Positions 2,446 to 28,043 of a DNA stretch of 31,017 nucleotides are shown one piece after another. The notes beneath the pieces are model-generated. The model was not told where the DNA came from and ran no database searches. It saw nothing but the letters and a program-made list of their open reading frames with translations. The stretch spans positions 1-31,017 of the forward strand of contig JAGSHN010000007.1 of assembly GCA_029855935.1 (NCBI GenBank), written 5' to 3'. The translations under genes and the position numbers were made by a program. Each line of letters begins with the position of its first letter. Within the stretch, counting starts at the first letter, position 1. The stretch comes from Candidatus Thorarchaeota archaeon. Lineage in GTDB: Archaea > Asgardarchaeota > Thorarchaeia > Thorarchaeales > Thorarchaeaceae.

Positions 2446-2451
2446 TAGAAG

Positions 2452-2456: not shown

Positions 2457-2490
2457 GGAGTAACTATGGCCTGCTGTGACTGAAGATTCG

Positions 2491-2497: not shown

Positions 2498-2525
2498 CCC
2501 ATCACATACGGAGACGTTCTGCAAT

Positions 2526-2750: not shown

Positions 2751-2770
2751 GGGTCAGTCAGTGAGTGGCG

Positions 2771-9194: not shown

Positions 9195-9199
9195 CAGCT

Positions 9200-9205
9200 C
9201 TCCCC
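9200..9205 (-). promoter_or_regulatory. Ribosome binding site of the second receiver gene
   Basis: GGGGAG on the minus strand, 5 bases before ATG 9194. It supports the short form over the TTG start at 9239. Confidence 0.6.
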
Positions 9206-9219
9206 TCACGGAGATGTTG

Positions 9220-9582
9220 TCAGGACGCAATTGCAGCATCTACGAGCTCAAGCATATGGCGTATCGTCACAGGCTTGAGCCCAAAGCTTGCAGCCCCTTG
9301 GTCGAGGGCCTTATCCTTGATCTTCGCATCCGCGCTGATGAAGACTATCTTCGCATCGGGGTTGATTTGAAGGATCTCCCGCATCGCGTCGAGCCCGTCC
9401 TTGTTGGGCATCCGGTGGTCGAGAATGATGACATCAGGCTTAGGGTCCATCTCCTTGTAGATCCTCACTGCTTCCTCGCCGTCATACGCATCGGCAACGA
9501 CTTGATGGCCTTTGATTGCAAAGACATCCTTGTATAGTCTGTGCAGGATGACCTCATCGTCCACGATGAATATGGTGGCCAT
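9220..9582 (-). CDS. Stand-alone response regulator (receiver domain only)
   Basis: 120 aa from ATG 9582. Standard CheY-type receiver: D8-D9 pocket (IFIVDDEVILHRL), phospho-acceptor D55 (VIILDHRMPNKDG), a Ser at the switch site (FISADA) and the Lys of FGLKPV. The open frame continues 67 codons upstream, but that part is of low complexity and not domain-like, and receiver proteins normally begin right before the first strand, so ATG 9582 (or TTG 9594) is preferred. It is the first gene of a two-receiver operon running towards the KaiC-like gene at 8046. It carries no output domain; a phosphate-relay or partner-binding role is likely, with kinases encoded elsewhere. Confidence 0.9.
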   Translation of the reverse strand: MATIFIVDDEVILHRLYKDVFAIKGHQVVADAYDGEEAVRIYKEMDPKPDVIILDHRMPNKDGLDAMREILQINPDAKIVFISADAKIKDKALDQGAASFGLKPVTIRHMLELVDAAIAS

Positions 9583-9708
9583 GGCGTTCGTCAACCCGGA
9601 TGCTTCTCTATTCACTGGGGCGGCACCGGTGGGGGACCCTGTATTCCGTCCTCCTTCAGTACTTTTCCTCCCAGCGCAAGTGTCTTTCGTCTTGCTATGT
9701 TCACTCCC

Positions 9709-9717
9709 GATATAAAT
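9709..9717 (-). promoter_or_regulatory. TATA box of the two-receiver operon
   Basis: The minus strand reads ATTTATATCG, a good archaeal TATA box. The predicted transcription start is near 9685, giving a leader of about 100 bases before ATG 9582. The leader contains an orphan GGAGG without a following start codon. Confidence 0.55.
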
Positions 9718-10110
9718 CAATTCGTGGTACTCTTCCGTCGGTTTCCGGCTCGACCGACGAGGCCCAATAATGACACAAGCCAAGAAACGACGGGTCTTTG
9801 CTGCTGGCTGGTGCGACCCATGCCCCGTTTTGACCCCCTGCCGCAGTCCCTGTTATGACCGTCCAGTCACAGGCTCCCAATTCCTGTCAACAGCATCTAG
9901 CAGGTGGCTGTGAATCACACGCACAAATCTTAAGACCGTTTCCCACAATATGAGTACAGACCGTTGCGCCCCTGAGAGGAGAGCCGTCCAAGGAGGGATT
10001 AGTCTGTACCAGTCCCCACCGACGGAATTGAGTGCGCGATTTGGCGAGCACCATCACCTATCACTGATTTCTGCATACGGTCTTCTTGATCGAGTCGGTC
10101 AGCAGTGAGG

Positions 10111-10118
10111 CTATACTC
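10111..10118 (+). promoter_or_regulatory. Possible TATA element of the beta-helix gene
   Basis: CTATACTC, 57 bases before ATG 10176, predicting a leader of about 35-40 bases. Weak match. Confidence 0.3.
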
Positions 10119-10161
10119 GAACTCCGCCAATCTCTCCTTGTTGGGCGACCAAAGATACGAC

Positions 10162-10167
10162 GGAGTG
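10162..10167 (+). promoter_or_regulatory. Ribosome binding site that fixes the start at 10176
   Basis: GGAGTG, 8 bases before ATG 10176. It supports the start directly before the signal peptide over the upstream frame opening at 10086. Confidence 0.55.
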
Positions 10168-10175
10168 ATGGTCAG

Positions 10176-12791
10176 ATGAAGAGAGAGAGCGCGGCAATAT
10201 TTCTCTTGTCGGTTCTAATCCTGTCAACATTGCCGCTGCTTGGTCTGATCCGGACCAGCGGGCGGCAACCGAACGCGGTCACGTACACACGGCAGGCGCA
10301 TCCCGCCTACGTGAGTCACGCCCCCATCGTCATAGATGACGATTCCGATTTTGCGACGCAGGGCTGGCCCGGGAGCGGTACTGAGGCCGATCCCTACGTC
10401 ATCGAGGGACTCAACATAACCACAGAAGGAACGTGCATTGATATCCGGTCCACTACAGTGTACTTTGTGATACGCAACTGCCTGTTGGTGTCCACAGGCA
10501 CAGACAGTCAGTACGTGATCTATCTACGCGGCGTGTCACACGGGAGGGTCGAGTCGTCAACGCTCATCGGGGCCAGATATTCTGTGTTCATGTCCCTAGT
10601 TTCAGATATCTCGGCTACGAACATAGTGGCGAGCGGGTCTGGCGAGAGAGCCGCCTACGCCTACAAAGGCGGAGACTTGGTCTTTGACAACTGGACCGTC
10701 CACGATAAGCAGTATGGTATCACGTGCGTATTGTCTGACAACGTCAATGTCACCAACTCTCGCATCTGGGCCGAGATCTACGGACTGTGGTACAGTAGGT
10801 GTACGAACTTCTCTGCCACAGAGAACAGCTTCTACGGATGTTCGCCTTCCCTAGACTGCCGTGACAGGAGCCAGATTCCACTCAATATGACGGGGAACAC
10901 CGTCAACGACAGACCTTTGTTGTATCTGAACGGGACCATCGACACAGTGGTTGACACCAGCAACTACGGGAGTGTGATCCTCACAAGCACTCGCAATGTC
11001 ACACTCTCGGGTGGAATCTTCTCTGACGTTTCAGTGGGCATCCAGACACACTTCTGCGAGAATACATCAGTCGCACATGTGTCAGTGAGTGACTGTGTCT
11101 ACGGAATCTTTGTCGGCTACAGCAACTGGACAGCGGTCTCGTACAGCACTTTCAGCGATTTCACGTCTGCTGGCGTAAACGTGGGTGCTTCTTGCATGGG
11201 CCTGAACGTAACGGGCTGCACATTCACGTCAAGCGAGGGCGTTGGCATAGGCTCGACTGCGATGCCAGAGATTCGCATCAACTCCAACGTGTTCGTGGGC
11301 TGCGGTGTAAGAGAAGTCGCCCACGAATATCAGGACTGGCCAGTGGAGATGTGGAACAACACTGTCAACTCGAAACCCCTCGGCTACCTGGTCAATCAGA
11401 CCGATCTTGTCGTTGACGGCTCTGAGTACGGCCAGCTCTACATAGTCGGATGTGTCAACACGACGGTCACGGGTGGTACTTTCAAATTGGTCGGTCCAGC
11501 CGTGACAGTCGGCCTCTCAAACCTGACATTTGTCCGGGACGTCGAAGTAGATGGTATGGGTGAGTCCATATGGGGCATTATGGGCATCCTGTCGAACAAC
11601 TTCACTATCGCGGACACAATGCTGAAGAATTTCGGCTGGTACGGTGTCTATCTTGAGCAAGTCTCGAATGTCACTGTTGATGAACTGAGAATCTGCAGAG
11701 CTGAGACTGGTATCGCATGTACTACAAGCCAAGTTGTACGCTTCACCAATTGCAGAATCTGGAATTGCACTGGTGGATTCGGAGGCATCTGGCTGTACAA
11801 CACGGAAAACTCGACACTGGTCAACAATACCATATTCGGCTGTAGCAACTACGGTGTCTGGATTCGGGGCACCAGTAGCGTTGACATCTACGGGAACAAG
11901 TTTGGGTGGAACGCCCAGAACGCAGCAGATGACAGTGGTGTCAATTGGGACAATAGTGTCGACACGGGCAATGCCTGGAGTGACTACGAGGGGGTTGGTG
12001 ACTACGTCATCGGCGGAACGGTGGGTGGCACTGATCACTATCCGTTGGTCCTGACCGATGACACTCCGCCTGAGATCTCATCACCTCCTGACGCGGAGTT
12101 CGAGGAGGGAGATGCGACCGCCATCGTGACATGGGATGTCAGCGACCAGTACCCTCACTACTACGAGGTCTACCGCAACGGGAGTCTGGTAGAGTCAGCG
12201 AGCTTCTGTTGCCAGCAACAGGCATCAGTTCATCCTGAGGGCACTGCTGGCGAGATATGGAACTACACGGTCGTTGCGTACGACTACGCTGGGAACAAGG
12301 CCAGCGATACAGTGTTCGTGCACTTCACTCCGGCAACAGCACCATCAATCGACCATCCAGATGACATCACCTTCACACAGGGCGTCGGAACACACATCAT
12401 AACGTGGCATCCGTCGTCCGTGACACCGGACAGCTATGTCCTCTACGTGAACGGCACAGTCACCGAGAGCGGCCCGTGGGACGGCTCCGCCATATCGGTG
12501 GAGGTAAGCGACCTGACAGAGGGCGTCTACAACTACACGCTGTTCGTGAACGACACAAGAGGACTGTCCGCATCTGACACGGTGATTGTGACGGTAACTC
12601 CACAGGAAACAACGACAACCACCACTGGAGGGACGACCACCGGGACCACGAGTGAGACCACCACTGAAACTACCGCTCCGGGCGGTCCGCCACTTGACCC
12701 GCTGCTTGTGATTGCCCTAGTTGCCGGGGTCGTCGGGGCAGTCGTCGTTGTACTTGTTGTCATCAACAGGCGACGTTCCAAGGTTGTCTGA
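10176..12791 (+). CDS. NosD-like beta-helix surface protein with Ig-like domains and C-terminal anchor
   Basis: 871 aa. The signal peptide MKRESAAIFLLSVLILSTLPLLGLI starts at ATG 10176 behind GGAGTG; the 30 codons upstream in frame are not protein-like. Next come PIVIDDDSDFATQGWPGSGT and DPYVIEGLNI, the usual lead-in of archaeal NosD-type proteins, and then a long right-handed beta-helix up to about residue 620 with many N-x-S/T sequons and turns such as NVTNSRIW and NSTLVNNTIFGCSNYGVWI. Two Ig/fibronectin-like domains follow (about 630-715 and 715-805), then a Thr-rich linker (many TTT and GTT), a membrane helix (LLVIALVAGVVGAVVVVLVVI) and a basic tail NRRRSKVV. It is thus an exported protein, anchored at its C-terminus, with the helix outside. 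It resembles the left-edge gene. Role: adhesin or carbohydrate-interacting protein (inference). It is followed by a 390-bp gap and a separate promoter. Confidence 0.9.
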   Translation: MKRESAAIFLLSVLILSTLPLLGLIRTSGRQPNAVTYTRQAHPAYVSHAPIVIDDDSDFATQGWPGSGTEADPYVIEGLNITTEGTCIDIRSTTVYFVIRNCLLVSTGTDSQYVIYLRGVSHGRVESSTLIGARYSVFMSLVSDISATNIVASGSGERAAYAYKGGDLVFDNWTVHDKQYGITCVLSDNVNVTNSRIWAEIYGLWYSRCTNFSATENSFYGCSPSLDCRDRSQIPLNMTGNTVNDRPLLYLNGTIDTVVDTSNYGSVILTSTRNVTLSGGIFSDVSVGIQTHFCENTSVAHVSVSDCVYGIFVGYSNWTAVSYSTFSDFTSAGVNVGASCMGLNVTGCTFTSSEGVGIGSTAMPEIRINSNVFVGCGVREVAHEYQDWPVEMWNNTVNSKPLGYLVNQTDLVVDGSEYGQLYIVGCVNTTVTGGTFKLVGPAVTVGLSNLTFVRDVEVDGMGESIWGIMGILSNNFTIADTMLKNFGWYGVYLEQVSNVTVDELRICRAETGIACTTSQVVRFTNCRIWNCTGGFGGIWLYNTENSTLVNNTIFGCSNYGVWIRGTSSVDIYGNKFGWNAQNAADDSGVNWDNSVDTGNAWSDYEGVGDYVIGGTVGGTDHYPLVLTDDTPPEISSPPDAEFEEGDATAIVTWDVSDQYPHYYEVYRNGSLVESASFCCQQQASVHPEGTAGEIWNYTVVAYDYAGNKASDTVFVHFTPATAPSIDHPDDITFTQGVGTHIITWHPSSVTPDSYVLYVNGTVTESGPWDGSAISVEVSDLTEGVYNYTLFVNDTRGLSASDTVIVTVTPQETTTTTTGGTTTGTTSETTTETTAPGGPPLDPLLVIALVAGVVGAVVVVLVVINRRRSKVV

Positions 12792-13116
12792 CGGGCACAG
12801 GTTCTTTCTTCCGGACGGTGGCGGGCGATGGCGGATTCCGTCGCCTCATACCACCGTTCCGGTTATTTCTTGCTCACAATATCGTCCCCACCTCTCCTCG
12901 CATATGGTTGCAGGGTGACTCTTCGTTCTGGAGGTCCGCATTGCCGCTGCCGCTAGTGACACGACCGCTTGTGGCCGGACGGAGGCGCTTCAGGATTGGA
13001 GACGTACCCGACAGAGAAGAATCGTAGGATGGAATCAGTCCCCAGGTTCTATGGGCGAAGGGTTGAGCCAGCATTGTCAATGACCACTAGTTTATTCGGG
13101 AAATTGCCGGGGAAGA

Positions 13117-13124
13117 CTTATATC
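13117..13124 (+). promoter_or_regulatory. TATA box for the propeller/giant gene pair
   Basis: CTTATATC, a good archaeal TATA box, 57 bases before ATG 13182. Predicted start of transcription is close to 13145, giving a leader of about 35 bases. Confidence 0.6.
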
Positions 13125-13143
13125 CAAACTACCCAACACTACA

Positions 13144-13160
13144 CCAGTTCTAGGAACTGG
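13144..13160. promoter_or_regulatory. Perfect inverted repeat at the predicted transcription start
   Basis: CCAGTTC, TAG, GAACTGG: perfect 7-base arms around 3 bases, 20 bases after the TATA box and 21 bases before ATG 13182. The position suits a repressor operator that blocks RNA polymerase, or a hairpin at the very 5' end of the mRNA. Its sequence differs from the dyad at 4004, so a different factor would be involved. Confidence 0.5.
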
Positions 13161-13168
13161 CAGTGGTT

Positions 13169-13174
13169 GGGAGG
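13169..13174 (+). promoter_or_regulatory. Ribosome binding site that fixes the start at 13182
   Basis: GGGAGG, 7 bases before ATG 13182, which opens directly into the signal peptide. Confidence 0.6.
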
Positions 13175-13181
13175 CAGCCGG

Positions 13182-15188
13182 ATGAGAGAAGCCGCGCCAC
13201 GGTGGGGTGGAGCTGTGACTGTACTTGTTCTTGTGCTCGCCCTCGGTGTTTCTATCTGGGGAACTGATGCAGGTCGGGCCACCGTACCTGCTGGCCCCGG
13301 GAATGACGTTTCCGCCGTGTGTTCAGGTCCCAACGAGTTCTATGCAGCCCCCTCGCAGATCAACGTATCTCCGAGTTGGACGCACGACTCCGGAAAGAAT
13401 CTGTACATTCGGCCAGTGGCGATCTCTGGCGATGGGTCAACAGTCATCGAGGGCAGCGACACACTGGTCAGTCTGTTTGATGCCCACAGTGGAACTCTGC
13501 TGTGGACTCACGACGTCGGTGGCATGGTCTTTGATGCTGAGATCTCAAGAGATGGCAACACCTCGGTGGTGGGAGCGAACACCACACAAGTGGTGACCTT
13601 CCAGCGTTCCACGGATGTTCCACTCTGGACTGCCAACTGCAGCGATTGGGTTGCCACCGTAGATGTATCGGCAGACGGGTCCGTAATTGCGGCTGGCGAC
13701 ACATCTGGTATGATCTACCTGTTTCACAGGGACTCCAATCAGCCGGTGTGGACGTTCAACGCGACCGAGAGCGTCTTCTTTCTTGACCTCTCGTCTGATG
13801 GGTCGACGCTGGTTGCCGCTTCAAGGAACTACACTGTGAGCGATACGATCTACCTCTTTGATACCACAAGCAACAACACGCTCTGGACATTCTCCGCGTC
13901 GGATGCCTTCTTTGAGGTCAGCGTATCTGCGGAGGGCGAGTTGATTGCAGTGGCCGCGAACGATGCCCTCTATGTCTTCTCACGCAACAGCAATGCGACC
14001 GTCTGGAAATACGGTGGTGATGGCTTTTGGTCCCTGGACGTCTCAGAGAATGGAGATACCATCGTGGCAGGGAGATGGCGTAGGGACACGGAGAGTGTCT
14101 ACGTGTGGCACTCCGACAGCAATGAAACAGTATGGAGATTCAGGACATCATATGAGATACCCGACGTGGCAACATCCGAAGATGGCAGAGAGATTGTGGT
14201 TGGATGCATGGACAACGTGACCCGAGTATTCTCTGTGACCTCGAACGAGACCGTTCTCCAGTACACATCGAGTGGTGAAGTCAACGCGGTCTCCGTATCT
14301 GAGTCTGGTGATGTTTTCGTTGTTTCAAGTGCAGGGGGCCAGACACACCTCTTCGAGCTGTCAGAGCCGCAAGCAGGATCGGTATCGCCCACACGGACTG
14401 CCTACGGTACGTCCGAACAGGTAGACCTGACCGCACAGGTCAATCCGGGCACAGCGCCCATCTCAGCCGGCCTGGTCTTGTACAGCACCGACAATAGCAC
14501 GTGGAGCACGGCAGTGATGCAGAATGCAACCTCCCTGTCCAGTTCGCCCGTGGTCTTCAACGTCTCAATCGGGCCCTTCTCTGAGGGGCGCATCTACCTC
14601 CACACGTGGTTCAATGATACCTTGGGGTTCGTGGATGAAGGACAGACCATCCACGTTGATATCGACGGTACACCACCTGAGTTGTTGTCTCTAACGTACG
14701 AACCTCAGACCCCTACCTCAGAGGATGCAGTTCTCGTCAATGTCTCGGTCGACGATGCAGTCAGTGGGGTCGCCGCCGTCACCCTGCGGTACTCTGTGGA
14801 CGGGGGCAACGACTGGTCCGAAGTGGCAATGGTCTCCTCGTCTGGTTCGTCCTATACGGGGACAATTCCGCCACAGCCCAACTCGACCGTCGTATTGTTC
14901 TACATTGTCGCAGTCGATGGTGTGGGCAATGAGATCACTCTTGACAACCATGGCGATTACTTCTCGTATACGGTACTGGACTACTCAGCCACAACAACGA
15001 CAACGGGCACCAGTACTACTTCTGGCAGTACCACCGGGCCCTCAGGAAGCCAGCCAGGTCAAGCCCTGAGTATAGTCTTCGTGGGGCTTGCGGTCCTTGC
15101 GGCCGCAGGTGTTGCTGGTAGTTTCCTGTTTCTGATATACTTGCGTAGGGAGCGTCTAGGTGGGCCCAGTCCCTCGCAAAATGTCTAG
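13182..15188 (+). CDS. Secreted beta-propeller protein with Ig-like domains and C-terminal anchor
   Basis: 668 aa. Signal peptide: MREAAPRW, then VTVLVLVLALGVSIW. Residues about 60-390 form seven or eight repeats of about 40 residues, each with a 'S.DG..I..G' segment, a strand such as IYLFHRDSN, and a W-T/K/R-F closing strand (WTHDVGG, WTANCSD, WTFNATE, WTFSASD, WKYGGDG, WRFRTSY): a WD40/PQQ-like beta-propeller. Two Ig-like domains follow (about 395-490 and 490-600; the second with the DDAVSGVAAVTLRYSVDGG pattern), a Thr/Ser-rich linker, a membrane helix (LSIVFVGLAVLAAAGVAGSFLFLIYL) and a basic tail. The longer frame from 12969 is rejected because the TATA box, dyad and ribosome binding site all lie inside it. 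Only 7-16 bases separate it from the giant gene, so they are probably coexpressed and may act together on the cell surface. Ligand unknown. Confidence 0.9.
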   Translation: MREAAPRWGGAVTVLVLVLALGVSIWGTDAGRATVPAGPGNDVSAVCSGPNEFYAAPSQINVSPSWTHDSGKNLYIRPVAISGDGSTVIEGSDTLVSLFDAHSGTLLWTHDVGGMVFDAEISRDGNTSVVGANTTQVVTFQRSTDVPLWTANCSDWVATVDVSADGSVIAAGDTSGMIYLFHRDSNQPVWTFNATESVFFLDLSSDGSTLVAASRNYTVSDTIYLFDTTSNNTLWTFSASDAFFEVSVSAEGELIAVAANDALYVFSRNSNATVWKYGGDGFWSLDVSENGDTIVAGRWRRDTESVYVWHSDSNETVWRFRTSYEIPDVATSEDGREIVVGCMDNVTRVFSVTSNETVLQYTSSGEVNAVSVSESGDVFVVSSAGGQTHLFELSEPQAGSVSPTRTAYGTSEQVDLTAQVNPGTAPISAGLVLYSTDNSTWSTAVMQNATSLSSSPVVFNVSIGPFSEGRIYLHTWFNDTLGFVDEGQTIHVDIDGTPPELLSLTYEPQTPTSEDAVLVNVSVDDAVSGVAAVTLRYSVDGGNDWSEVAMVSSSGSSYTGTIPPQPNSTVVLFYIVAVDGVGNEITLDNHGDYFSYTVLDYSATTTTTGTSTTSGSTTGPSGSQPGQALSIVFVGLAVLAAAGVAGSFLFLIYLRRERLGGPSPSQNV

Positions 15189-15194
15189 TCTGTA

Positions 15195-15200
15195 GGTGAT
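15195..15200 (+). promoter_or_regulatory. Ribosome binding site of the giant gene
   Basis: GGTGAT, complementary to the usual 16S rRNA 3' end. It overlaps two possible start codons (GTG 15196, ATG 15199) and is 4 bases before GTG 15205, so the last is probably the real start. Confidence 0.5.
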
Positions 15201-18200
15201 GCTTGTGAGCAGAGAGCGACTATTGATTGTGTTCTTCGTGGGGTTCTTCTTGGCAATCTTGGTTGCGCCGCATAGGGCCGCAGCAGTGCCGATTGTGGAT
15301 CCCGGCGGTGGGGGAGCGTCCACTGACAACAGGGTACTAAACGGTAGCTTTGAATACGGTACTACCTCCTGGAGGGGATCTGGGATTGGCACTCCTAAAG
15401 TCGTAACGACCAGACACGTGGACGGAGACCACTCGCTACGAATCTCTGGTGTTGTCACTCTGGGAACCGCTATATACCAGATGTCGCAGGACGTAACCGA
15501 CCCAGAGCCGATTACGAAGAACACACGGCTGTGCGCGTCAATAATCTTGGAGCACGACTACACCATAGCTGCGGCGACGGTCATCCTTGTGGTTTCTGTA
15601 AGTCCCAATCACTCGTTTGTTCTGGCCTACTACGTGAGCGACAATCTTGATTTCCCAGACCTCAACTTCTTGGGAATAGAGCAATATGTCATTGAAGTGG
15701 GAAACAAACAGGGTGCTTGGAAGTCATTCTGCAGGAATATCTCTGATGACATCCAGACGAAGACGGGATACGACCCTGCAGACCTCTCCATCAAGAGAGT
15801 GATACTTGATGTACGCAGTTCAAGTGTCGGCCTTGGTGCATCGTGCACTGGCTATTTTGACGACCTCTACTTGGGCAGCACACCTCCGGGCATTTGGGTA
15901 AACAACCCCGACGACGAACAGTGGGTGAGTGGGACCTACACGTTCTCAGGAACTGCAGTGGACCACCGCGGGCGGGGGCTTGCCTTCGTGGCGGCTCGGA
16001 TTACTACTCCGGGCCACCTGATACCAGACTTCATGGGCCTCTGCGATGGGACGACCGAATGGAGCCTTGAATACGACACCACCCATCTCAGCGAAGGTCG
16101 CCATGAGTTCAGAGTAGATGTTTTTGACAACGCTAACACGTGGGCGCACGCCTCGGTCTTCTTCAGGGTTGACAACACCAACCCAAGTGGCACGATATCC
16201 AATCTTGAGACAGACCACTACTACCGTGGCGTGGTCACTGTGACCGGAAGCGCCAGCGACGCTCTGAGCGGAGTGGACCGAGTTCGGGTGAGAATCGACA
16301 ACGGTGAGTGGGAGGCGGCAACAGGGACCACATCGTGGTCCTATGAATGGGATACGACCACTGTGAGCGACGGGAGCCATACGTTCACTGCTCGTGTGTA
16401 TGACCGGGCCGGCAACTACGTCGACAGGTCTGTCCGGGTCAATATCGACAACAGTGCTCCGAGCCTTGGCACAGTCACGTTCGGTCCCAGCTACGGGTCA
16501 CTCAATCAGGAATTCACAATAAGTATCAGTTCCATCACCGAGACAGGTTCGGGGGTGAAGAAAGTGGAGGCCACGGTGAAGCGGCCGGATGGCTCCACGT
16601 TCACTGTCAAAATCTCAAAGAAGAGCGATGGATCGTGGGAGGGTTCCTTCCCGCTGGGGAGCAGTGATGCAGAGGGCACGTACACGCTCGTCTCAATCTA
16701 TGCGATTGACAAGATTGGTAATGAAGTGACCAACGCTTACTCGAAGAAGATTGTATATGACTACACGGCTCCCACCCTCACATTCACCTCACACGACAAC
16801 TATGACCAGATATCGGGAACTGTCACCCTTTCGGGTTCTCTGAGTGATGCTGTCTCCGGACTGTATGCTGCAACAATCACGATAGACGGCTCTGAAACGT
16901 ATGACATAGTGTCCAGTAGTGGTACGTGGAGCTTCAGCCTCGACACAACGGCATACGATGACGGGTATCACGTGTTCAGACTTCAGGCCCGTGACAGAGC
17001 AGGAAACGTCAGGATCATCACCTACTATCTTGCGATAGCGAACAGTCCTGAGCCTGTTGCGCCGTTCATCCCCGTAGTGAATGAGAACGGCGACTACCTC
17101 ACAACAGCCTATGTGACAGTGGGGAGTTCACAGGTCACCATCCTCTGCACATTCCCCGATGGCCCCCCTGGTACGATGGCATATCTTCTTGTTGCACCGC
17201 CGTTTGACTCGCTGTGGTCGCTTCAAGATGTTGCGATAGTCGTCGATGACGGTTCGCCTGAGGGCTCGACCAAGAGTATTCTCTCTGTCTGCGAGTGGAG
17301 TACGGACACTCACAGTCTGTCGTTTCCCCTCTCTGCAGACGGCGGTGTTGGCCGTCGCTCGGTGATAGCGTTTCTCAGCAAGGCTCAGCTGTCGTGGTCA
17401 GTTTCTTCTCCGTCGAAGGTAGTCTATCAGGGACAGGAGTTTACCGTCAGTTTTACCCTTGAGAACTACGACAGCCTCTCCGAGGCCTACGGCGGAGAGT
17501 TCCGTGCGGAGCTCATTGCCTATCAGGACGGTCAAGGTGTCGTCCTTGGCACGGCTGAATGTGACTCTTCAGGGGTCTTCACGTTTGTGACGACGATTGG
17601 ACCAGGTATTCTTCGCGGGGGACCGTTGACACTCCAAGCTCGACTTATTGACGTTCCAAGTTCGGTCTATGACACCACAGACTTGACCTCACCTTTGTTT
17701 GATGGATTCGTGTTCTACGAGCTGATCGGCTGGGAGTTCAGTCCAGACACCGACACAATAGTTCACTACTCTCCCACCGTGTATGACCAGCGTCAGGTCA
17801 CGGTCGAGGTCCGCATTGTCGACTCTGCGGGGATTGCTACCACAATGGTTGGACAGGTGGTTGAGGTGACAGTCACCGGCCCCGGAGTGAGCGATTCATT
17901 GCTGATCTACCAGACAGAGCACGATGACGGCACATACGCTCTATTCTCATACTCGTTGACGACTGCAGGGCAGTATATCATCAATTTCACATATGTGCCC
18001 ACAGGATACTACTATGGTGTTGTCAGCAGGACGATCACAGTCCAGCTATATCAGCAGCGCCCGGTTGAGACAGCGCTGGATGTTCCTGAATCATTGCAGG
18101 TGGGAACCACGGTGACTCTGCGGGCACGCGTAGTGGATGTGTGGGCTGGGGGGTACCCGGTGGCGGGAGTTCAGGTCACGTTCCAGTACCAATCCTCCGG

Positions 18201-21200
18201 TGTCTGGACCGACATTGGCACAGCCTCCACGGACGGAGACGGGCTAGCAACGTTGACATGGTCGCCTGCTGCTGATGAGTGGGCACGAATCGCAGGCCAA
18301 GACATCATCATAAGAACGATCAGTCAGTCCAGCGCAGTCTATCAGGCCTCGGAAGTTCAGCAGACTGTTGCCGTTGGGCTTGTTGGAACTTACTTTGTGA
18401 CCCCTGTGGCCACTCCGGCGCAGATTCTTACTGGCGAGCAGATCTGCATCGAGCCGCGTCTGTTCGACCAGTTTGGCAACATCCTCGAACACAATCTGAC
18501 TGTGGAGATAGTGGGGCCATATGGATACGTCCAGAGATTTGAGATGACAGCTGGCCCGGACTCGTCGCTGAACCTCACCCTCGACCTGTGGGGCAACTAC
18601 ACGGTGGAGGTGACCTATGCTGGCGACTCTGTTTATGGTGGAAACAGTGTGACCGAGAGTATCAGGGTGATCGGCCTTCTGACGTTCCCAGTAGTCACTG
18701 TCACGCCCGACCCGGCGAGCATCGTTGCTGGTGAGCCGTTCAACGTGCAGTTTGACCTCACCGATATCAACGGGGAGGCGATTCTCGGCGCGACGCTGCG
18801 TGTGAGTGTGACTTGGGAGGGCATCACCAGCGGGTATGTGATTGTGACCGGGGTGAATAGCACAATCACTCTGAGCTACGAGACTCGGGGCATCGCGCAA
18901 GTTCTCTGTCAGTTCGATGGTGACGCAACCTACGAACCGAGCGAGCAGAGTATTGCAGTATCTGTTCAGCGCCGCCCGGTCTCAATAGATCTCACCGTGC
19001 CGATGGACACTGTCTATCCGTATGTTGGACCCTCACTTGTCTCGTACTCATTGAGTGCCACTGTGGTGGACGCGCTCACAGGCCAGCCTCTGGACAACGT
19101 ATCAGTGGTCTTCTGCTACGTGACTGAGAACAGCACGGTGCTACTCCCGGTATCCAACAGCACTGGTGACTTCAACGTGACGCTTGCGTCGGAGTATCTG
19201 GCGTGGGGCCTCTTCAATAGCATAGGGACCTCATACACAGGTTCGACAGGAGGGGCGTCGGCTGAGTGGCAGGTACCCTCGATGAATGAGCAAACACTCT
19301 ACATCTTTGCTGTGACAGAACAGAGCGACAGGTATCTGACAGGGGTGAGTACGGTCTACCCCGTTGAATTCGTGCGAATACCGACGACTGTGGCGGCGGA
19401 GGCAGAATGGACCGGAGTCGGAAAAGAGGTCAACGTGTCACTGTCACTCGAAGATGTGTTCGCCCTCCCGCTGTACGACAAGGAGGTCCACTTCACTATC
19501 AGCAGTATTCTTGACTCCAAGGTGGTCGCCGAGGGAACCGCGATCACAGGTTTCAACAGCTCATTCAGTATTCAGGTACCCGAATATGGGGCCTACACCA
19601 TCACAGTGTGGTTCGAGGGCGATGAATACTATCAGCCTTCCGGCGAGTACTCTGCGGTCTTCGTGGTGTCGTGGCGAAACGTCGGTATCAGTCTCGCAGC
19701 TCCGGACTGGGCATATCCGGGCGAAGAGATTCAGCTCAGCGCGCACGTCACTGATCTGAATGCCACACCGGAGAGCCATCTACTAGAGCCCGTGACCGTG
19801 TACTTTGCCTGGAAGGACGAGGCTGGGTTCCACGCCATAGGGTCGGCGCTCACCGATGAGGCGGGCACAGCCGTGCTGGAGTGGGCCTCGCAACTCGTCC
19901 CGGGCAGATATCAGCTCGTTGCGTACACTCATCGGCAGACAATCTACGATGTCGGCCTCAGTCAGTTCCACGCCTTTGAGATTCGCCCCATCAGGACGCA
20001 CCTGAGCGTCTCGGTCAATCGCACGGTCACCTGGTCGTTCAACTACACCTATGACTTCTCGGTCTCCCTGACAGATCAGTTCGGAAACAATCTGACAGGC
20101 GAGGTCGTGACACTCCGATTGACGGACAACTACACCGACCTCTGGTCGTTCCTCCATTTCGATGAGGATGCCATCTGGGAGTTCGAGGACGGATCCTGCT
20201 ACGGAAATCCCCTCTATCACCTCTTCGAACTGAGAGTGGTCATCGGGTACAATGACACATTCACGTGGGTTGTACCTGGGTGTATTGCTGACCGAATCTT
20301 GTTCGCTCCAAGGGCGATTGCGATTGCTGAGTACAGCGGCAATGTGACCTACCTCCCCTCTGTGTACACCACGAAGATGGACAACTGCCTGCTGAACACT
20401 CGGACTGACGTACTACTTGGCAATACCACTCTCATGCCGGGCGTGCCCGTGACTCTGACAGTCAATGTCACAGACGAAGATGGATGCATTGTCTCAAACG
20501 GCGTCGTAACGATTGTCATCGAGGACGATTTCGGACAGTCTGAGAACTGGACCATCGACTTGGGCGCCAACAACAGCATTGTATGGACCCCGTGGTCATT
20601 CGGACGTTTCACCATACACGCTGAGTATACAGGCGGCAGGTTCTATGAACTGGACTGGCACTGCGGATGTCATCATCATCCGCTGCGGGGAATTCTACGC
20701 CGTATGCGTCTCACGCGAAGCTACAATATCACAACGGTGGCTGTGGAAGGTCGACCAACTCTGCTGACGATGGAGGAGTTGCCCACTCGTCTGACTGCTG
20801 GAGAGGGCATCCTGTTGAGAGCCTCAGCCGTAGATGCTCTGACCGGTAGTCCGATACCCGGACTTGAGGTGAGGTTCTACTATCTCACCTCCGATGGGGA
20901 CTTCATCCTCGTGGGATCCAATCGTACCAATGAGGCTGGACAGGCCATCTATGTGTTGGACCCACCAGCGCCATCCAAGGGACAGGGCTACGAGTCCGTA
21001 TTCATCTTTGCGCAGGGCCTATCGTCAAGGACATCTGTGATGTCGTCCGTGCCACAGTACCCGACGGAGATCTGGCCTCCATCTGAGCAGTTCCAATCTT
21101 TGAGTCAGTCCGCGGCGTCTCCGGCACAGCACGACCGAGGTACTGCACGTTCTCAGATTGACATCATTGCACTGCCCATCCTCATCTCGGCGATGGCCGT

Positions 21201-24200
21201 GCCTCTGCAGCTGCTCAGGTCTCGGAACAGGCGTCTGTTCAAGCTGTTGATGATTGCTGTGGTGTTGTTCTCTGTCGTCTTCACCTTGTACGGCGTGCTC
21301 GGACTGGAGTCGATGAACCATCCCTTCAGGGCGGCCCTGATAGAAGACGTGCGTACGAATTTCGAGAGCGTGTCAACGCCGACGGGCAGGCCCTATGCGC
21401 CGGACAGCGATCCCGTGATGACGGGATCACTATCGTTCGGCACCATCCGAACGGCTGACTCCGGGACTATTCCATCAAGTCTTGCAGGCTACGCCGTCGC
21501 CTCGCCGAACGCGAGCTACATCGTTGTTCCTCTCAGAAAGAGACTGTGGGTGAACTTCACGGCTCACGGGCACTATGTCATCACCGTCGTCGATGGTGAC
21601 AGACAACCTATTGATACGGTGGCTGGATTTGCAGACGGGAATACGACCGTAGACTTCACGATATCATCGGACAAGTATGACCCTGGCTCGACCTATGCCG
21701 TCAACATCTTTGTCACTGTACAGTCTGGTGGAATCACCTATGGCGACACGTCGTGGATAGTGATGTACGTGTCGAAGACGGCAACCCATCTCGACCTCAC
21801 CCCGGAGTACGATTCTCTATACTACAGTGCAACGGCCAGAACGATGACATTGGCTGCACGACTGACCCGAGTACTTGAGAACGCGACAATTGCCAACAAG
21901 GTGGTCAGCTTCAGGTACAGGTCGGCAACCGATCTGAACTGGACTGACATTGGAACCAGTGTCACGGACGAGCGTGGTATTGCCACAATAGAGTGGTCCC
22001 TCAGTCTCACTCCAGGTAGCTATGTTGTCAACGCTACGTTCGCAGGTGACTCTACCCACTTCGGGTCTACATCAGCCAAGGTGGTTGAGGTCAAGGGCGT
22101 GGCCACGGTACTGAACTTTGTAGAGGGGGCCCCGCTGAGAACCTCGGTACAATACGGTCACGCTGCCACGTTCTATGCTCGGCTCACCGACTCTCTCCAC
22201 GTGCCTCTTCAGAACAGGACTGTGGAGTTCTATGTTGTGACCGGCGACCGCAGCTATCTCCTCGGTGCCAACAGGACGGGTCCTGACGGTCTTGTCGAGT
22301 TCACCTATGCTCCGTACTTCATCGCAGGCCTGTATGACATCTTGGCGGTCTTCCCGGGCGATGCCAATCACGCCCCGTCGAGGCTCACCTTCTCCGGCGG
22401 TCTGCAGGTGTTGCCAAGAATATGTGTCTTCAGTTCCGAGCTGGCTGTGAGTGCTGTAGCTGGTGACACTGTGATCATCTCCGTTCCTGTCACCGACGAC
22501 CGTGGTGTCCCAGTCAGCGGAAGTCATGCCAGATTTGAGGTCTACAACCCGGAGTCCGGCACGTGGGACGTGATTGGCGAGACCGACACAGACCAGGGTG
22601 GCTACGCGACCATCGAGTACACGGTGAATGTCACGCCCGGTGCCTACGTGATCAGGCTTGTCATAGAGGGTGATGCGACACTTGATGGTGGCGTACTACA
22701 GGGAACTCTCACAGTCGGCGCAAGACCAACGACGGTTCGCCTGGTCAGCGTGGAGGGCGACTACGGTCAGGCTGTCACATTGACTGCACACCTCCAGGAC
22801 TCCGACGGTCTGGCCCTCCCGGACTCCACACTGCTATTCTATGTGAGGATCGATGACACTTGGCGCTTCATCGGTTCCGCACTCACGACCTCGGACGGGT
22901 GGGCTGAACTGTCCTGGGTGATTGACCTCCCCGCGGGACAGTACGATGTGCGAGTCGTCTTTCCGGGTGACAGCCTACACGCATCCAGTCAGTCAGTCGG
23001 TCCAATGATGACTGTCGAGACTGTGCCTGCGGTGTTGGCCCTATCCGTGCCCACTGAGGCCTTCATCACGTTGCCAATGTCTGTCAACGTCTCACTGCAC
23101 GATGCGCTAGGCGCACCGCTTGGACAGCGAGTGGTCACGCTGTCAATTGCACCATCCACTGGCGTCGCGACGACGGTGACGCTTCAGACCGACGAGAACG
23201 GCACTGCCTCGTTTGTCTACGTTCCGCCGTACCTTGGAGAGTACTCTGTGACTGCGACCTTTGCGGGCGACTCGTTCTATGATGACTCAACAGCGAGTGG
23301 ACAGTTCGTGGCAAAGAAGATAGAGGTCTCAATCTCCCTCGTCCTCAGCAAGACCAGTGGGCACAGGGGCGATAGGATTCTCTTCTCAGGAATGGCCACG
23401 ATACGGCCTGATGGAGAGACTGTTCCGGCCTACCGCGGCATCCCGTTTGATATGGTTCTCGTGGGCAACGAGGACTTTCCCGTTGGGAGTTACAGCATCA
23501 GGACGGAGGACGGCGGTGTCATCACTGGCTGGTGGGAGATACCACGATACCTGTCCGACAATATCAGCAGACTGTTCGATGCTGGCGACTACACATTCAG
23601 GGTGAGTGCTGCTCCCGGGACTGCCTTCACCGGGGAGACTACCTTCGAGTTCAGGATAATTCTCCGGACGACCCTGACTGTCGAGCCAGTCTATCCAACT
23701 GTCAACGGGGCAACACTCAGCAGTCCCTACGTCGACATCCCTATGGGTTTCACCTTCTCTCTTGTCGACGAGGACAACCGACCAATGCAGGACTATCTGC
23801 TCTATACCGACATCGATGGCTCTGGCTGGAGTGAGGTCTCCACCGACAAGTCTGGTCAGTGGTCGGCCAATGGATTTGTCCCCGACACTGCCCGTGGCAT
23901 CTATGCTCGTGCGAAGTTCGAGGGCACTCCCTACTTTGACCCCGCGTGTGACGGTGTCGCACTGCAGGTCCTACGTCGTGATATGCGACTGAGCATGACC
24001 CTTGGCAACACCTATGTCCATCGTGGCGACGAGCTTGTGATCACCGTGTCTGCCACCGACCTGCTTACCGGTAATCCGATTACGGGAGAACCGGTCGAGT
24101 TCGTCGTGTACGTAGATGGCGAGAAGATGGCAACGACCTCAGTCAGCGCGACGCCCTCCCTGCTGGGTATTGTCCTGCCCTCCTGGGTGAAGGCCGGAAA

Positions 24201-26148
24201 CCACTCAGTCACTGTCCGTGCCGATGTCTCAAGGGTGTACCTCTCGGATGAAACCGAGCAGGTCATCTCTGCTTACGAGCATACCCGATTGGATCTCACC
24301 GTGCCCTCCGAGGCAAACACAGAGGACCAGGTTCGCGTCCTCGTATCGCTGGAGGACGAAGATGGCCTTCCTGTGAGGGACAGATTCGTCACGGTCTCCA
24401 TCACGAAGCCCGATGGTTCTATGCTCCTCAGAATCCTGAGGACAGACGCTCTCGGCCACGGATCCACTGTTCTCACGCCAATGAGAGGCGGGGTCTACTC
24501 CCTCTCGGCAGAGTTCGGTGGGGAGTTTCACTACGTTCAGAGCAGTGTCGAGCCAACAGGGATGATTGTCGAGGCGCTTGAGGCCCAGAGCGAGGCTGGT
24601 CCGTCTCCGCTGTGGATGCTACCAATCATTCTGATGATAATCGTCAACTGCTTCTTGGAGGCGGCCACTCTGGGAATGGTGAGCTTCCTTGATGTCTCCG
24701 TGCCGATGGGTGGTGGCACTCTCAGGCTATTCAAGTACTCCTATCCGTGGATCGAGATCCAGTGGGCCAAGGTAAGGGTGGGCCTCGTGGACGTGGACGT
24801 ACCGGTTCCCGTGCTTGTCCTGAAGAGTGAGGCCAGCTACGAGTGGCAGTCTGATGACAAGAGTGTCACCGTGAGTTCAAAGGATGGCGATGCTACGGCC
24901 ATGCTCTTTGGGAATGCGAATCTGATGGAGGTCGTGGACGATGCCTGGTTGAAATTCCAGCCTGACTTCAGTGTTCCCCAGGAGTCCACTCCCTCCCCGG
25001 GCAGACCGGGCACCGACACGAGATCAACATCCGCTTCTGCCATGTGCGAGACTGTTGACACTATGCCGTCCTCCATCTTGTACGACTCCCCACACACTGG
25101 TGTCCCGTTCGCGGAGACACCGGTTCTTCCTGAGCCCCGAGGAACGGCCAGTTCGCACAGTGGCTTCACAGTCGAGATACTCACTCCCGCAATCGGTCAG
25201 AGAGTGGAGGCTGGTGTCCCGGTGACAGCACTGGTCGACGGTCTCAATGCCTCGCAGATCGACTCTGTGAATCTGTACGTTGACGATGAGCAGGTCGACA
25301 CAATGTCACCCTACATAGAGACAAGCAATGCGACCTGGTTCAAGGGATTCTGGTATTCTCAAGAGCTTGACGGAGTGACCCCGAAGTGGAGCAACGGTCC
25401 GCATATGCTGAAAGTCGAGGTGAGGACAAAGTCCGGAGAAACATCAGAGGCCAAAGTTCCAGTCAACGTGTTCAACCTCTCGACAATTGGCCTGGGATTC
25501 ATCATAATGCTGGCGACGGAGGTCCTCATCACTGTCCTGGTAGCTCTGCTTGGACCATTGATAGAGAAGGCCATAGAGTTCATCGCCAAGTCGAATCCGA
25601 CGGCTGGCGGCATTCTTGAGGCCATCGCATCAACGCTGCTCTTTGTACTGACGTACTATATGACGATCTTCCTCGTCGATATGCTGCAGGGACTTGTCGG
25701 CTACGGTTTCCTGACGACCAAGATACTCGGGACATCGTTCATGTCTGGCCATCTCATCGGCCTGATTGTCTTCATTCTGGGAATGATTCTTGGGATGACT
25801 GTGTCGGGATTCAAGACAAAGAACTATAGGACAGCTGACAGATTGGCGCTGTTTGTGACTGGATTGACCCTGAAGGTCTACTTCAAGTTCTTGGAGCGGC
25901 ATCTCCCCGATATTCTGGCAGGCTTTGGGCCAGCTGCCGACTTCGTGGAGTTCGAGATTAGTGTGCTTGAGTCAGGTCTAGAGGAGCTAGTAATCGGAAT
26001 CCTGCTTGCTCTCATGTACAAGAAATACGTGTCGAAGCAGATGCGGAACACAATGCTATATCAGTCAGGAGCGATGGGTATCTGCATAGCAGGAATCGAG
26101 ATTATCTTCATAACAGAGAGAGAGGCAGAGATACTGTATGAGGAGTGA
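15196..26148 (+). CDS. Giant Ig-repeat membrane protein, about 3650 aa
   Basis: One uninterrupted frame of 3650 codons (numbers count from GTG 15196; the ribosome binding site favours GTG 15205). Order of parts: signal peptide (about 10-30, LLIVFFVGFFLAILVA); a jelly-roll, carbohydrate-binding-like domain (about 50-230, beginning VLNGSFEYGTTSW, ending YFDDLYLGS); Ig-like domains of the 'D..SGV..V....DG' type (230-620); then a long tandem of Ig-like domains with 'L.D..G.P', 'IG.A.TD..G.A.L.W' and 'G.Y.....F.GD..Y' signatures. In the middle (1988-2037) two membrane helices flank a basic loop (RSRNRRLFK). A second Ig tandem follows (about 2140-3120), a membrane helix at 3140-3163, another Ig-like part (about 3320-3425), and a C-terminal bundle of about five hydrophobic segments (3430-3637). 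I count roughly two dozen Ig-like units. One unit carries an HCGCHHH cluster at 1822-1828. Cotranscription with the propeller gene is likely. Role: very long surface stalk or adhesin (inference). Confidence 0.88.
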   Translation: MMLVSRERLLIVFFVGFFLAILVAPHRAAAVPIVDPGGGGASTDNRVLNGSFEYGTTSWRGSGIGTPKVVTTRHVDGDHSLRISGVVTLGTAIYQMSQDVTDPEPITKNTRLCASIILEHDYTIAAATVILVVSVSPNHSFVLAYYVSDNLDFPDLNFLGIEQYVIEVGNKQGAWKSFCRNISDDIQTKTGYDPADLSIKRVILDVRSSSVGLGASCTGYFDDLYLGSTPPGIWVNNPDDEQWVSGTYTFSGTAVDHRGRGLAFVAARITTPGHLIPDFMGLCDGTTEWSLEYDTTHLSEGRHEFRVDVFDNANTWAHASVFFRVDNTNPSGTISNLETDHYYRGVVTVTGSASDALSGVDRVRVRIDNGEWEAATGTTSWSYEWDTTTVSDGSHTFTARVYDRAGNYVDRSVRVNIDNSAPSLGTVTFGPSYGSLNQEFTISISSITETGSGVKKVEATVKRPDGSTFTVKISKKSDGSWEGSFPLGSSDAEGTYTLVSIYAIDKIGNEVTNAYSKKIVYDYTAPTLTFTSHDNYDQISGTVTLSGSLSDAVSGLYAATITIDGSETYDIVSSSGTWSFSLDTTAYDDGYHVFRLQARDRAGNVRIITYYLAIANSPEPVAPFIPVVNENGDYLTTAYVTVGSSQVTILCTFPDGPPGTMAYLLVAPPFDSLWSLQDVAIVVDDGSPEGSTKSILSVCEWSTDTHSLSFPLSADGGVGRRSVIAFLSKAQLSWSVSSPSKVVYQGQEFTVSFTLENYDSLSEAYGGEFRAELIAYQDGQGVVLGTAECDSSGVFTFVTTIGPGILRGGPLTLQARLIDVPSSVYDTTDLTSPLFDGFVFYELIGWEFSPDTDTIVHYSPTVYDQRQVTVEVRIVDSAGIATTMVGQVVEVTVTGPGVSDSLLIYQTEHDDGTYALFSYSLTTAGQYIINFTYVPTGYYYGVVSRTITVQLYQQRPVETALDVPESLQVGTTVTLRARVVDVWAGGYPVAGVQVTFQYQSSGVWTDIGTASTDGDGLATLTWSPAADEWARIAGQDIIIRTISQSSAVYQASEVQQTVAVGLVGTYFVTPVATPAQILTGEQICIEPRLFDQFGNILEHNLTVEIVGPYGYVQRFEMTAGPDSSLNLTLDLWGNYTVEVTYAGDSVYGGNSVTESIRVIGLLTFPVVTVTPDPASIVAGEPFNVQFDLTDINGEAILGATLRVSVTWEGITSGYVIVTGVNSTITLSYETRGIAQVLCQFDGDATYEPSEQSIAVSVQRRPVSIDLTVPMDTVYPYVGPSLVSYSLSATVVDALTGQPLDNVSVVFCYVTENSTVLLPVSNSTGDFNVTLASEYLAWGLFNSIGTSYTGSTGGASAEWQVPSMNEQTLYIFAVTEQSDRYLTGVSTVYPVEFVRIPTTVAAEAEWTGVGKEVNVSLSLEDVFALPLYDKEVHFTISSILDSKVVAEGTAITGFNSSFSIQVPEYGAYTITVWFEGDEYYQPSGEYSAVFVVSWRNVGISLAAPDWAYPGEEIQLSAHVTDLNATPESHLLEPVTVYFAWKDEAGFHAIGSALTDEAGTAVLEWASQLVPGRYQLVAYTHRQTIYDVGLSQFHAFEIRPIRTHLSVSVNRTVTWSFNYTYDFSVSLTDQFGNNLTGEVVTLRLTDNYTDLWSFLHFDEDAIWEFEDGSCYGNPLYHLFELRVVIGYNDTFTWVVPGCIADRILFAPRAIAIAEYSGNVTYLPSVYTTKMDNCLLNTRTDVLLGNTTLMPGVPVTLTVNVTDEDGCIVSNGVVTIVIEDDFGQSENWTIDLGANNSIVWTPWSFGRFTIHAEYTGGRFYELDWHCGCHHHPLRGILRRMRLTRSYNITTVAVEGRPTLLTMEELPTRLTAGEGILLRASAVDALTGSPIPGLEVRFYYLTSDGDFILVGSNRTNEAGQAIYVLDPPAPSKGQGYESVFIFAQGLSSRTSVMSSVPQYPTEIWPPSEQFQSLSQSAASPAQHDRGTARSQIDIIALPILISAMAVPLQLLRSRNRRLFKLLMIAVVLFSVVFTLYGVLGLESMNHPFRAALIEDVRTNFESVSTPTGRPYAPDSDPVMTGSLSFGTIRTADSGTIPSSLAGYAVASPNASYIVVPLRKRLWVNFTAHGHYVITVVDGDRQPIDTVAGFADGNTTVDFTISSDKYDPGSTYAVNIFVTVQSGGITYGDTSWIVMYVSKTATHLDLTPEYDSLYYSATARTMTLAARLTRVLENATIANKVVSFRYRSATDLNWTDIGTSVTDERGIATIEWSLSLTPGSYVVNATFAGDSTHFGSTSAKVVEVKGVATVLNFVEGAPLRTSVQYGHAATFYARLTDSLHVPLQNRTVEFYVVTGDRSYLLGANRTGPDGLVEFTYAPYFIAGLYDILAVFPGDANHAPSRLTFSGGLQVLPRICVFSSELAVSAVAGDTVIISVPVTDDRGVPVSGSHARFEVYNPESGTWDVIGETDTDQGGYATIEYTVNVTPGAYVIRLVIEGDATLDGGVLQGTLTVGARPTTVRLVSVEGDYGQAVTLTAHLQDSDGLALPDSTLLFYVRIDDTWRFIGSALTTSDGWAELSWVIDLPAGQYDVRVVFPGDSLHASSQSVGPMMTVETVPAVLALSVPTEAFITLPMSVNVSLHDALGAPLGQRVVTLSIAPSTGVATTVTLQTDENGTASFVYVPPYLGEYSVTATFAGDSFYDDSTASGQFVAKKIEVSISLVLSKTSGHRGDRILFSGMATIRPDGETVPAYRGIPFDMVLVGNEDFPVGSYSIRTEDGGVITGWWEIPRYLSDNISRLFDAGDYTFRVSAAPGTAFTGETTFEFRIILRTTLTVEPVYPTVNGATLSSPYVDIPMGFTFSLVDEDNRPMQDYLLYTDIDGSGWSEVSTDKSGQWSANGFVPDTARGIYARAKFEGTPYFDPACDGVALQVLRRDMRLSMTLGNTYVHRGDELVITVSATDLLTGNPITGEPVEFVVYVDGEKMATTSVSATPSLLGIVLPSWVKAGNHSVTVRADVSRVYLSDETEQVISAYEHTRLDLTVPSEANTEDQVRVLVSLEDEDGLPVRDRFVTVSITKPDGSMLLRILRTDALGHGSTVLTPMRGGVYSLSAEFGGEFHYVQSSVEPTGMIVEALEAQSEAGPSPLWMLPIILMIIVNCFLEAATLGMVSFLDVSVPMGGGTLRLFKYSYPWIEIQWAKVRVGLVDVDVPVPVLVLKSEASYEWQSDDKSVTVSSKDGDATAMLFGNANLMEVVDDAWLKFQPDFSVPQESTPSPGRPGTDTRSTSASAMCETVDTMPSSILYDSPHTGVPFAETPVLPEPRGTASSHSGFTVEILTPAIGQRVEAGVPVTALVDGLNASQIDSVNLYVDDEQVDTMSPYIETSNATWFKGFWYSQELDGVTPKWSNGPHMLKVEVRTKSGETSEAKVPVNVFNLSTIGLGFIIMLATEVLITVLVALLGPLIEKAIEFIAKSNPTAGGILEAIASTLLFVLTYYMTIFLVDMLQGLVGYGFLTTKILGTSFMSGHLIGLIVFILGMILGMTVSGFKTKNYRTADRLALFVTGLTLKVYFKFLERHLPDILAGFGPAADFVEFEISVLESGLEELVIGILLALMYKKYVSKQMRNTMLYQSGAMGICIAGIEIIFITEREAEILYEE

Positions 26149-27042: not shown

Positions 27043-27143
27043 TGGCGGCCTAGCGAAGCCGATTTCCCAATCCTTTTGAGCAGGCCCCCGCCAAACAACA
27101 GCGGTTGGCGCGTATGAGTAGTCGAGTTGGTGGCGTGGGAACA

Positions 27144-28043
27144 ATGAATACAGCGGTACTATCAACATTCTCGATTGCTGCGAGAGACCCCGGGAATGGC
27201 GACCTGGGTGTGGCCGTGCAGAGCAAGTTTCCTGCGGTCGGTGCCATCGTGCCGTGGGCGAGGGCCAATGTTGGCGCCATCGCCACACAGGCGTGGGCGA
27301 ATGTGTCCTACGGTCCGAGAGGACTTGAGCTGCTGGCTCAGGGAATGTCTGCGGGCGACGTTGTCAAGAAACTGGTCGCAGAAGACGAGCGGGCAGAACA
27401 CAGACAGGTCGGCGTAGTGGACTCGAAGGGCCGTGCTGCCGCTCATACAGGGTCGGAGTGCATGGAGTGGGCCGGTCACATCGTTGGTGACGGCTACGCG
27501 TGTCAGGGCAACATCCTCGCGGGGGAGGCTGTGGTGACCTCCATGGCCGAGGCGTTCGAGAGTACAGAGGGTGATCTCATCGACAGACTGTTCGCGGCAC
27601 TCAAGGCCGGACAGGCCGCTGGTGGTGACCGCCGCGGGATGCAGTCCGCGGCGATGCTTGTGGTCCGCGAGGCTGGTGGTTACGAGGGCGGCTCTGACAG
27701 GTACTTGGACATCAGAGTGGACGACCACCCCGACCCAATCAACGAGCTTGAGCGCATCTCCAAGATCTACGATATGACGCTGCTGAGCCGTGAGGACCCG
27801 AGCAGGCTGTTGACCATAACCGGAGATGTCGCACAGCGGGTCCAGGAGGCGCTTGTCGCACTGGGCTATCTGGACACCGTCGCTGGGCCGGGGTTCCCGG
27901 AGAGGGCGCAGAGGGCCCTCAACGAGTTCATCGCGGTCAACAACTTTGAGAACAAGATGCGCGATGATGGCAAGATCTGGCAGAGCGTCTACGACTACCT
28001 GCTCGACAAGGCACGTGAGAGGAAGGCCAGACTCCGGCGCTGA
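27144..28043 (+). CDS. DUF1028 family protein with C-terminal peptidoglycan-binding-like domain
   Basis: 299 aa from ATG 27144. The first 220 residues are a clear DUF1028 domain, which has an Ntn-hydrolase-like fold and no established reaction: LSTFSIAARDPGNGDLGVAV at the start, then VPWARANVGAIATQAWANVSYGPRGLELL, VGVVDSKGRAAAHTGSECMEWAGH, YACQGNILAG, AGQAAGGDRRGMQSAAMLVV and DIRVDDHPDPINELERI. Residues about 230-299 (EALVALGYLDTVAGPGFPERAQRALNEF...) resemble the peptidoglycan-binding-like domain often found at the end of this family. ATG 27144 is chosen because members begin a few residues before 'TFSI'; TTG 27105 or ATG 27114 would add an unconserved tail. No signal peptide, so probably cytoplasmic. 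Last gene before the CRISPR region. The role in an archaeon without murein is unclear. Confidence 0.88.
   Translation: MNTAVLSTFSIAARDPGNGDLGVAVQSKFPAVGAIVPWARANVGAIATQAWANVSYGPRGLELLAQGMSAGDVVKKLVAEDERAEHRQVGVVDSKGRAAAHTGSECMEWAGHIVGDGYACQGNILAGEAVVTSMAEAFESTEGDLIDRLFAALKAGQAAGGDRRGMQSAAMLVVREAGGYEGGSDRYLDIRVDDHPDPINELERISKIYDMTLLSREDPSRLLTITGDVAQRVQEALVALGYLDTVAGPGFPERAQRALNEFIAVNNFENKMRDDGKIWQSVYDYLLDKARERKARLRR

Follow-up and report, generated by a model that had tools for sequence, protein, structure and literature searches.

Asgard archaea are the group closest to eukaryotes. We analysed a stretch of 31,017 nucleotides (hereafter the window; contig JAGSHN010000007.1) from a metagenome-assembled genome (MAG) of Candidatus Thorarchaeota, which carries the gene for a giant surface protein built of immunoglobulin (Ig)-like domains and interrupted in mid-chain by a pair of hydrophobic helices. 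In 'Ca. Lokiarchaeum ossiferum', an Asgard archaeon that has been imaged, a single membrane bears complex unidentified surface proteins and no ordered surface layer (S-layer); the Asgard archaea imaged so far have irregular surface proteins in place of an S-layer, and these are thought to bear on the cell-cell contacts that have been proposed for eukaryogenesis (PMC9834061). The family described here offers a concrete and testable Thorarchaeota candidate for these structures.

The giant protein and its mid-chain hairpin

The gene occupies positions 15196-26148 of the forward strand, on which all features of the protein lie, as an intact and uninterrupted open reading frame (ORF) whose product has 3650 residues; its size and coordinates are exactly those given by an earlier reading of the window from the letters alone, the first-pass annotation. 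The ORF begins with GTG-ATG (start at GTG 15196 or ATG 15199) a few bases past the stop of the preceding gene, which suggests that both belong to one transcription unit. A signal peptide (residues 2-33; 15199..15294; apparent free energy of insertion, dG, -2.33) has the same position in the related sequence L011 and is likely cleaved near AAA-VP. It is followed by a non-Ig domain (residues 35-230; 15298..15885) at the tip of the first arm, which is 30-41% conserved in L011 and looks like a carbohydrate-binding module by eye only; a Pfam search of the giant protein gave no match within these residues. Arm 1 is an Ig-like tandem (residues 230-1927; 15883..20976), recognized by hidden Markov model (HMM) units and by matches to Big_3_5 and Big_7, and gives way to a disordered linker (residues 1928-1987; 20977..21156) with a predicted local distance difference test score (pLDDT) below 50 over residues 1941-1992.

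The linker leads into a helical hairpin. On a Kyte-Doolittle scan of the whole protein, the hydrophobic stretches are the signal peptide, a pair within 1986-2040, one at about 3139-3160 and a group running from 3425 to the C-terminus. The pair resolves into 1986-2009 and 2011-2040 on this scale, and into 1988-2008 (dG 0.52) and 2013-2035 (dG -3.02) on an apparent-free-energy scale. The first transmembrane segment, TM1 (residues 1988-2008; 21157..21219), is called by hydropathy, dG and AlphaFold alike; the basic loop RSRNRR (residues 2008-2013; 21217..21234) is predicted to be cytoplasmic by the positive-inside rule; and TM2 (residues 2014-2036; 21235..21303), a helix of residues 2012-2041 in the model, has dG values of -2.6 to -3.4 in five homologues. 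None of 60 shuffles produced a segment as hydrophobic as TM2, and no other segment with dG below 1.5 was found in 13,947 arm residues from seven homologous fragments. An AlphaFold model of residues 1860-2300 (mean pLDDT 60.7), from which the helical hairpin alone is relied on, shows disordered linkers flanking two helices, 1988-2010 and 2012-2041, and no Ig strands there. Two hydrophobic helices with a basic loop, which the first-pass annotation had located at residues 1988-2037 amid the Ig tandem, are thus recovered by all three approaches.

At the outer end of TM2 lies a juxtamembrane motif, LYxxL[GA]xESxxxPF (residues 2031-2044; 21286..21327), found in all five copies that cover the region. 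Directly after the hairpin comes a beta-rich domain (residues 2096-2195; 21481..21780), forming strands in the AlphaFold model, which is family-specific and, with a mean pairwise identity of 56-57%, the most conserved block along the chain; its place just outside the hairpin makes it a candidate docking site. Arm 2 (residues 2196-3126; 21781..24573) is again an Ig-like tandem, with nine HMM units at 2177-3099. Beyond it are a third hydrophobic helix, TM3 (residues 3139-3158; 24610..24669), a beta-rich region with a conserved [YI][SA]YP[WS] motif (residues 3163-3245; 24682..24930), a last Ig-like, Big_7-like domain (residues 3325-3426; 25168..25473) and a C-terminal membrane bundle (residues 3428-3650; 25477..26145). 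The polytopic nature of the bundle had been proposed before, and the AlphaFold model gives it six helices. The Ig units, put earlier at some two dozen, number 21 by a self-built HMM, to which Big_7 units near residues 230-510 and the one before the bundle are added, for a total of about 25.

Distribution and conservation of the family

When a profile of the hairpin region was run against GTDB genome contigs, the only matches were to MAGs labelled Thorarchaeota or simply archaeon (isolates Dive96_bin4.146, C14-20, with two contigs, and A399), and full matches to both the hairpin and the C-terminal profiles occur in 4 of 227 genomes of the phylum, belonging to two genera of one family. The homologues from the three other genomes are colinear with the window protein at 35-39% identity. 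One of them, in genome G009, is complete at 3652 residues and aligns over 3565 residues with 36% identity and no rearrangement, the hairpin lying near residue 2000 in both proteins; the remaining copies are contig fragments, two in G019 and at least two in G003. The sample thus comprises shallow alignments and fragmentary MAG contigs. Close to its N-terminal end, the giant gene has an in-frame stop in one G019 copy (L125 2173-2175) and a frameshift in the other (L124, about 6280-6294), each reflecting sequencing error or decay.

The hairpin stands at the same place in all four copies that cover both helices, and a fifth copy covers TM2. The loops of the five copies (RSRNRRLFK, GKLNPNLLR, RLNPQLRK, HRVRPDVFR and SRRNRKLLM) differ in sequence and are all basic. 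Mean pairwise identity is just 19% in TM1 and 30% in TM2, yet the segments stay hydrophobic, so that hydrophobicity rather than sequence appears to be conserved. It is barely credible that the pair is an accident of assembly or frameshift, or a stretch buried inside an Ig unit. Nothing was found in favour of either idea: the first is ruled out by the recurrence of the pair at the same position, with no stop, in contigs of independent MAGs, and the second by the hydrophobicity of the segments and by modelled helices that lie outside any Ig unit. The first-pass annotation had named buried Ig strands, or homologues lacking hydrophobicity in this region, as findings that would overturn its proposal; structure prediction gave helices, and the homologues are hydrophobic there.

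Membrane topology and processing

The charges of the C-terminal bundle constrain the path of the whole chain. Summed over six homologues, the loops TM4-5, TM6-7 and TM8-9 hold 59 lysine and arginine residues and the loops TM5-6 and TM7-8 only 5, an alternation that predicts both ends of the bundle to be outside. With arm 1 also outside, an even number of crossings is required among TM1, TM2 and TM3. All subsets of the nine helices were enumerated at three charge weights with an in-house topology score, and the best topology at every weight crosses with both hairpin helices, TM1 and TM2, and with all six helices of the bundle, TM3 being left out as a crossing. TM3 (dG -0.96 in the window protein) has a short hydrophobic run followed by a conserved N/D and mostly by E, and for this reason it is probably re-entrant or interfacial and not a simple crossing. 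Conservation of N-glycosylation sequons exceeds that of reversed motifs in both arms (10 of 27 columns versus 2 of 29 in arm 2, p 0.009; 20 of 55 versus 8 of 46 in arm 1, p 0.045), which fits an outside location for the two of them. Topology scoring and sequon conservation together support a membrane hairpin with its basic loop in the cytoplasm and both arms outside, as had been predicted for this protein.

Several points weigh against this topology. TM1 is only marginally hydrophobic in the window protein (dG 0.52) and, taken alone, is not extreme against shuffles, its support being its conserved position. The free-energy scale is an approximate one of the Hessa type, and was checked solely on the anchors and signal peptides of the two neighbouring proteins. 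Five sequences underlie the AlphaFold models, whose mean pLDDT is about 60, and a tally of distinct sequon sites, a measure without discrimination, showed no excess. Finally, at the lowest charge weight the best topology scores 11.86 and the runner-up 11.48, a small margin. In that runner-up one hairpin helix crosses, arm 2 is cytoplasmic and TM3 takes the chain back outside; such a path satisfies the parity set by the six-helix bundle and would suit the weak TM1 of the window protein. It is nevertheless unlikely, since TM2 is preceded by basic and followed by acidic residues, which puts its N-terminal side inside and hence obliges TM1 to cross; the conserved sequons of arm 2 and the clear hydrophobicity of TM1 in three homologues also speak against it.

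On balance we favour, with some reserve, the view that the giant protein is a lineage-specific envelope fibre of Thorarchaeota, an intact chain stitched through the single membrane at two places. The signal peptide would export the chain, and arm 1 (about 1950 residues) would project freely with the non-Ig domain at its tip, probably reaching 60-75 nm if each Ig unit spans about 4 nm. After the flexible linker, the TM1-RSRNRR-TM2 hairpin would dip through the membrane and bring the chain back outside, where arm 2 (about 10 units, with a contour of perhaps 40 nm) would start and end at the membrane, forming an arch that the re-entrant helix and the six-helix bundle close. Anchored twice in this way, the filament would be firmly held and laterally spaced at the surface. 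The two-armed stalk envisaged by the first-pass annotation is retained in its long outer arm 1, its hairpin, its second arm and its bundle; it is the stalk-like character of arm 2 that is lost. Since it runs from the hairpin to TM3 and the bundle, arm 2 is held at the membrane on either side and, unless the chain is cut, would form an arch and not a free stalk.

Arm 2 could be freed only by proteolysis, for which the simplest route would be TM2 serving as an internal signal peptide. Internal signal peptides work in a comparable way in bunyavirus glycoprotein precursors. The main alternative, possible though rather doubtful, is a polyprotein in which TM1 and the basic loop anchor a first protein and TM2 is cut by signal peptidase, leaving an arm of about 2000 residues held by the hairpin and one of about 1100 residues held by the bundle. 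The order of anchor helix, basic loop and signal-like helix that such a polyprotein needs is present; TM1 with its basic tail resembles the C-terminal anchors of the neighbouring proteins; in all five copies the hydrophobic core of TM2 follows a basic n-region and ends with G or A at position -1 and V, S or G at position -3 (putative sites VLG-LES, SLA-LES, VLG-IES, GLA-MES and GLG-VES); and cleavage would do away with the awkward arch. Against it stand the invariant residues about the putative site, part of the juxtamembrane motif and rare in cleaved signal peptides, and the absence of a polar c-region ahead of that site.

The same succession of Ig domains, linker, transmembrane helix, basic tail, signal-like helix and second arm is the look expected of a head-to-tail fusion, and the first-pass annotation had suggested descent from two ancestral surface proteins. 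This origin is plausible but unsupported: profiles of arm 1 (residues 1281-1860) and arm 2 (residues 2095-2780) detected no split homologue in the 227 genomes of the phylum, the arm 1 matches being confined to the same four genomes and the long arm 2 matches elsewhere being generic Ig tandems.

The partner gene and comparison with known systems

The gene directly upstream (12969..15188, forward strand) encodes a 739-residue WD40/PQQ-like beta-propeller surface protein, recognized by Pfam propeller matches, with a signal sequence, an Ig/FN3-like domain and one C-terminal transmembrane anchor at 703-725 (dG -2.27). The free-energy scan agrees with the earlier statement that the two neighbours of the giant protein each have a single C-terminal anchor. 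The linkage of the two genes is newly noted here: a WD40/PQQ-like gene lies immediately upstream in all five copies with visible upstream DNA (the window, G009, G003 and both G019 copies; window 12969-15188, L080 5592-7421, L110 714-2678, L124 3792-5816 and L125 3-1409). Full-length orthologues (32-38% identity) are confined to the four genomes in which the giant protein occurs, and matches in other genomes concern mainly the C-terminal Ig/FN3-like and anchor region. Constant adjacency and shared confinement provide the best functional lead, and the propeller and giant proteins probably work as a two-protein module on the cell surface. A stitched fibre might, alongside the propeller protein, serve in envelope scaffolding or in contact with surfaces or partners. 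It is also conceivable, if improbable, that one gene yields two giant Ig fibres on either side of an anchor-plus-internal-signal-peptide hairpin; cleavage at LG/LA-xES, on the outer face of the membrane, would separate them, and with the dedicated WD40 partner they would form a two-fibre complex.

On contig C542 of G019 (L083 3321-4061, reverse strand), the N-terminal part of the WD40 protein is joined in frame to the last 70 or so residues of the giant protein; this reflects either loss of the entire locus by deletion or, the MAG being of low coverage, a chimeric assembly. Elsewhere in the window there are two NosD/beta-helix surface-type proteins near the module (10086-12791 and 1-2445, reverse strand), two overlapping, adjacent response-regulator ORFs beside the surface-protein cluster (8811-9239 and 9220-9783, reverse strand), and an archaeal DUF1028 protein that carries a putative peptidoglycan-binding-like domain (27105-28043, forward strand).

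Literature searches found no description of this giant protein family, and profile searches of solved structures matched nothing. Among the other giant Ig-tandem proteins of the phylum, those that reach the C-terminus (L075-L079, L082, L105-L107 and L111-L113) begin with a signal peptide wherever the sequence includes the N-terminus and carry a single helix close to or at the C-terminus, which in some of them lies about 130-200 residues short of the end; L108 and L109 end before the C-terminus and contain no internal helix. Within the sample examined, the mid-chain hairpin is specific to the family described here, and its combination with a terminal bundle was not met in the other giant Ig proteins, so that its anchoring was rightly called unusual.

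Foldseek comparison of both AlphaFold models with the PDB returned generic Ig/MG chains only, at query-normalised TM-scores of just 0.11-0.29, and no fold was assigned to the bundle or the beta regions. The best rows were alpha-2-macroglobulin and complement, which share chains of MG-type Ig-like domains; in contrast to alpha-2-macroglobulin, a motif search of the giant protein found no CxEQ thioester. Bacterial fibrillar adhesins likewise are exported, carry long tandems of the Big_1, Big_3 and Big_7 families and have a non-Ig domain at one end, but the giant protein differs in its two-site anchoring in an archaeal single membrane, and no known adhesion domain was recognised in it. Bunyavirus glycoprotein precursors also place an anchor helix, a basic loop and a signal-like helix between two ectodomains; there is no homology, and cleavage of the giant protein is putative. 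The processing of these viral precursors has been reviewed (PMC7926653).

Closer in setting is tetrabrachion of Staphylothermus marinus, a giant archaeal surface filament with multiple arms, which is cut into two chains (PMC5744192). Its stalk is a coiled coil, whereas the giant protein has an internal membrane hairpin and is Ig-like throughout, the corresponding region being occupied by Ig-like units according to Pfam and HMM matches. Archaeal surface-layer proteins are described as being held by a C-terminal helix or by lipid (PMC8559796). The PGF motif of PGF-CTERM/archaeosortase substrates is absent from the window protein and from the vicinity of TM1 and the C-terminus in its homologues. 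With the S-layer and surface glycoproteins of archaea the giant protein shares a signal peptide, a tandem of Ig-like beta-sandwiches, membrane anchoring and predicted N-glycosylation sites; in place of their one C-terminal transmembrane helix or PGF-CTERM, it has an internal hairpin and a six-helix bundle.

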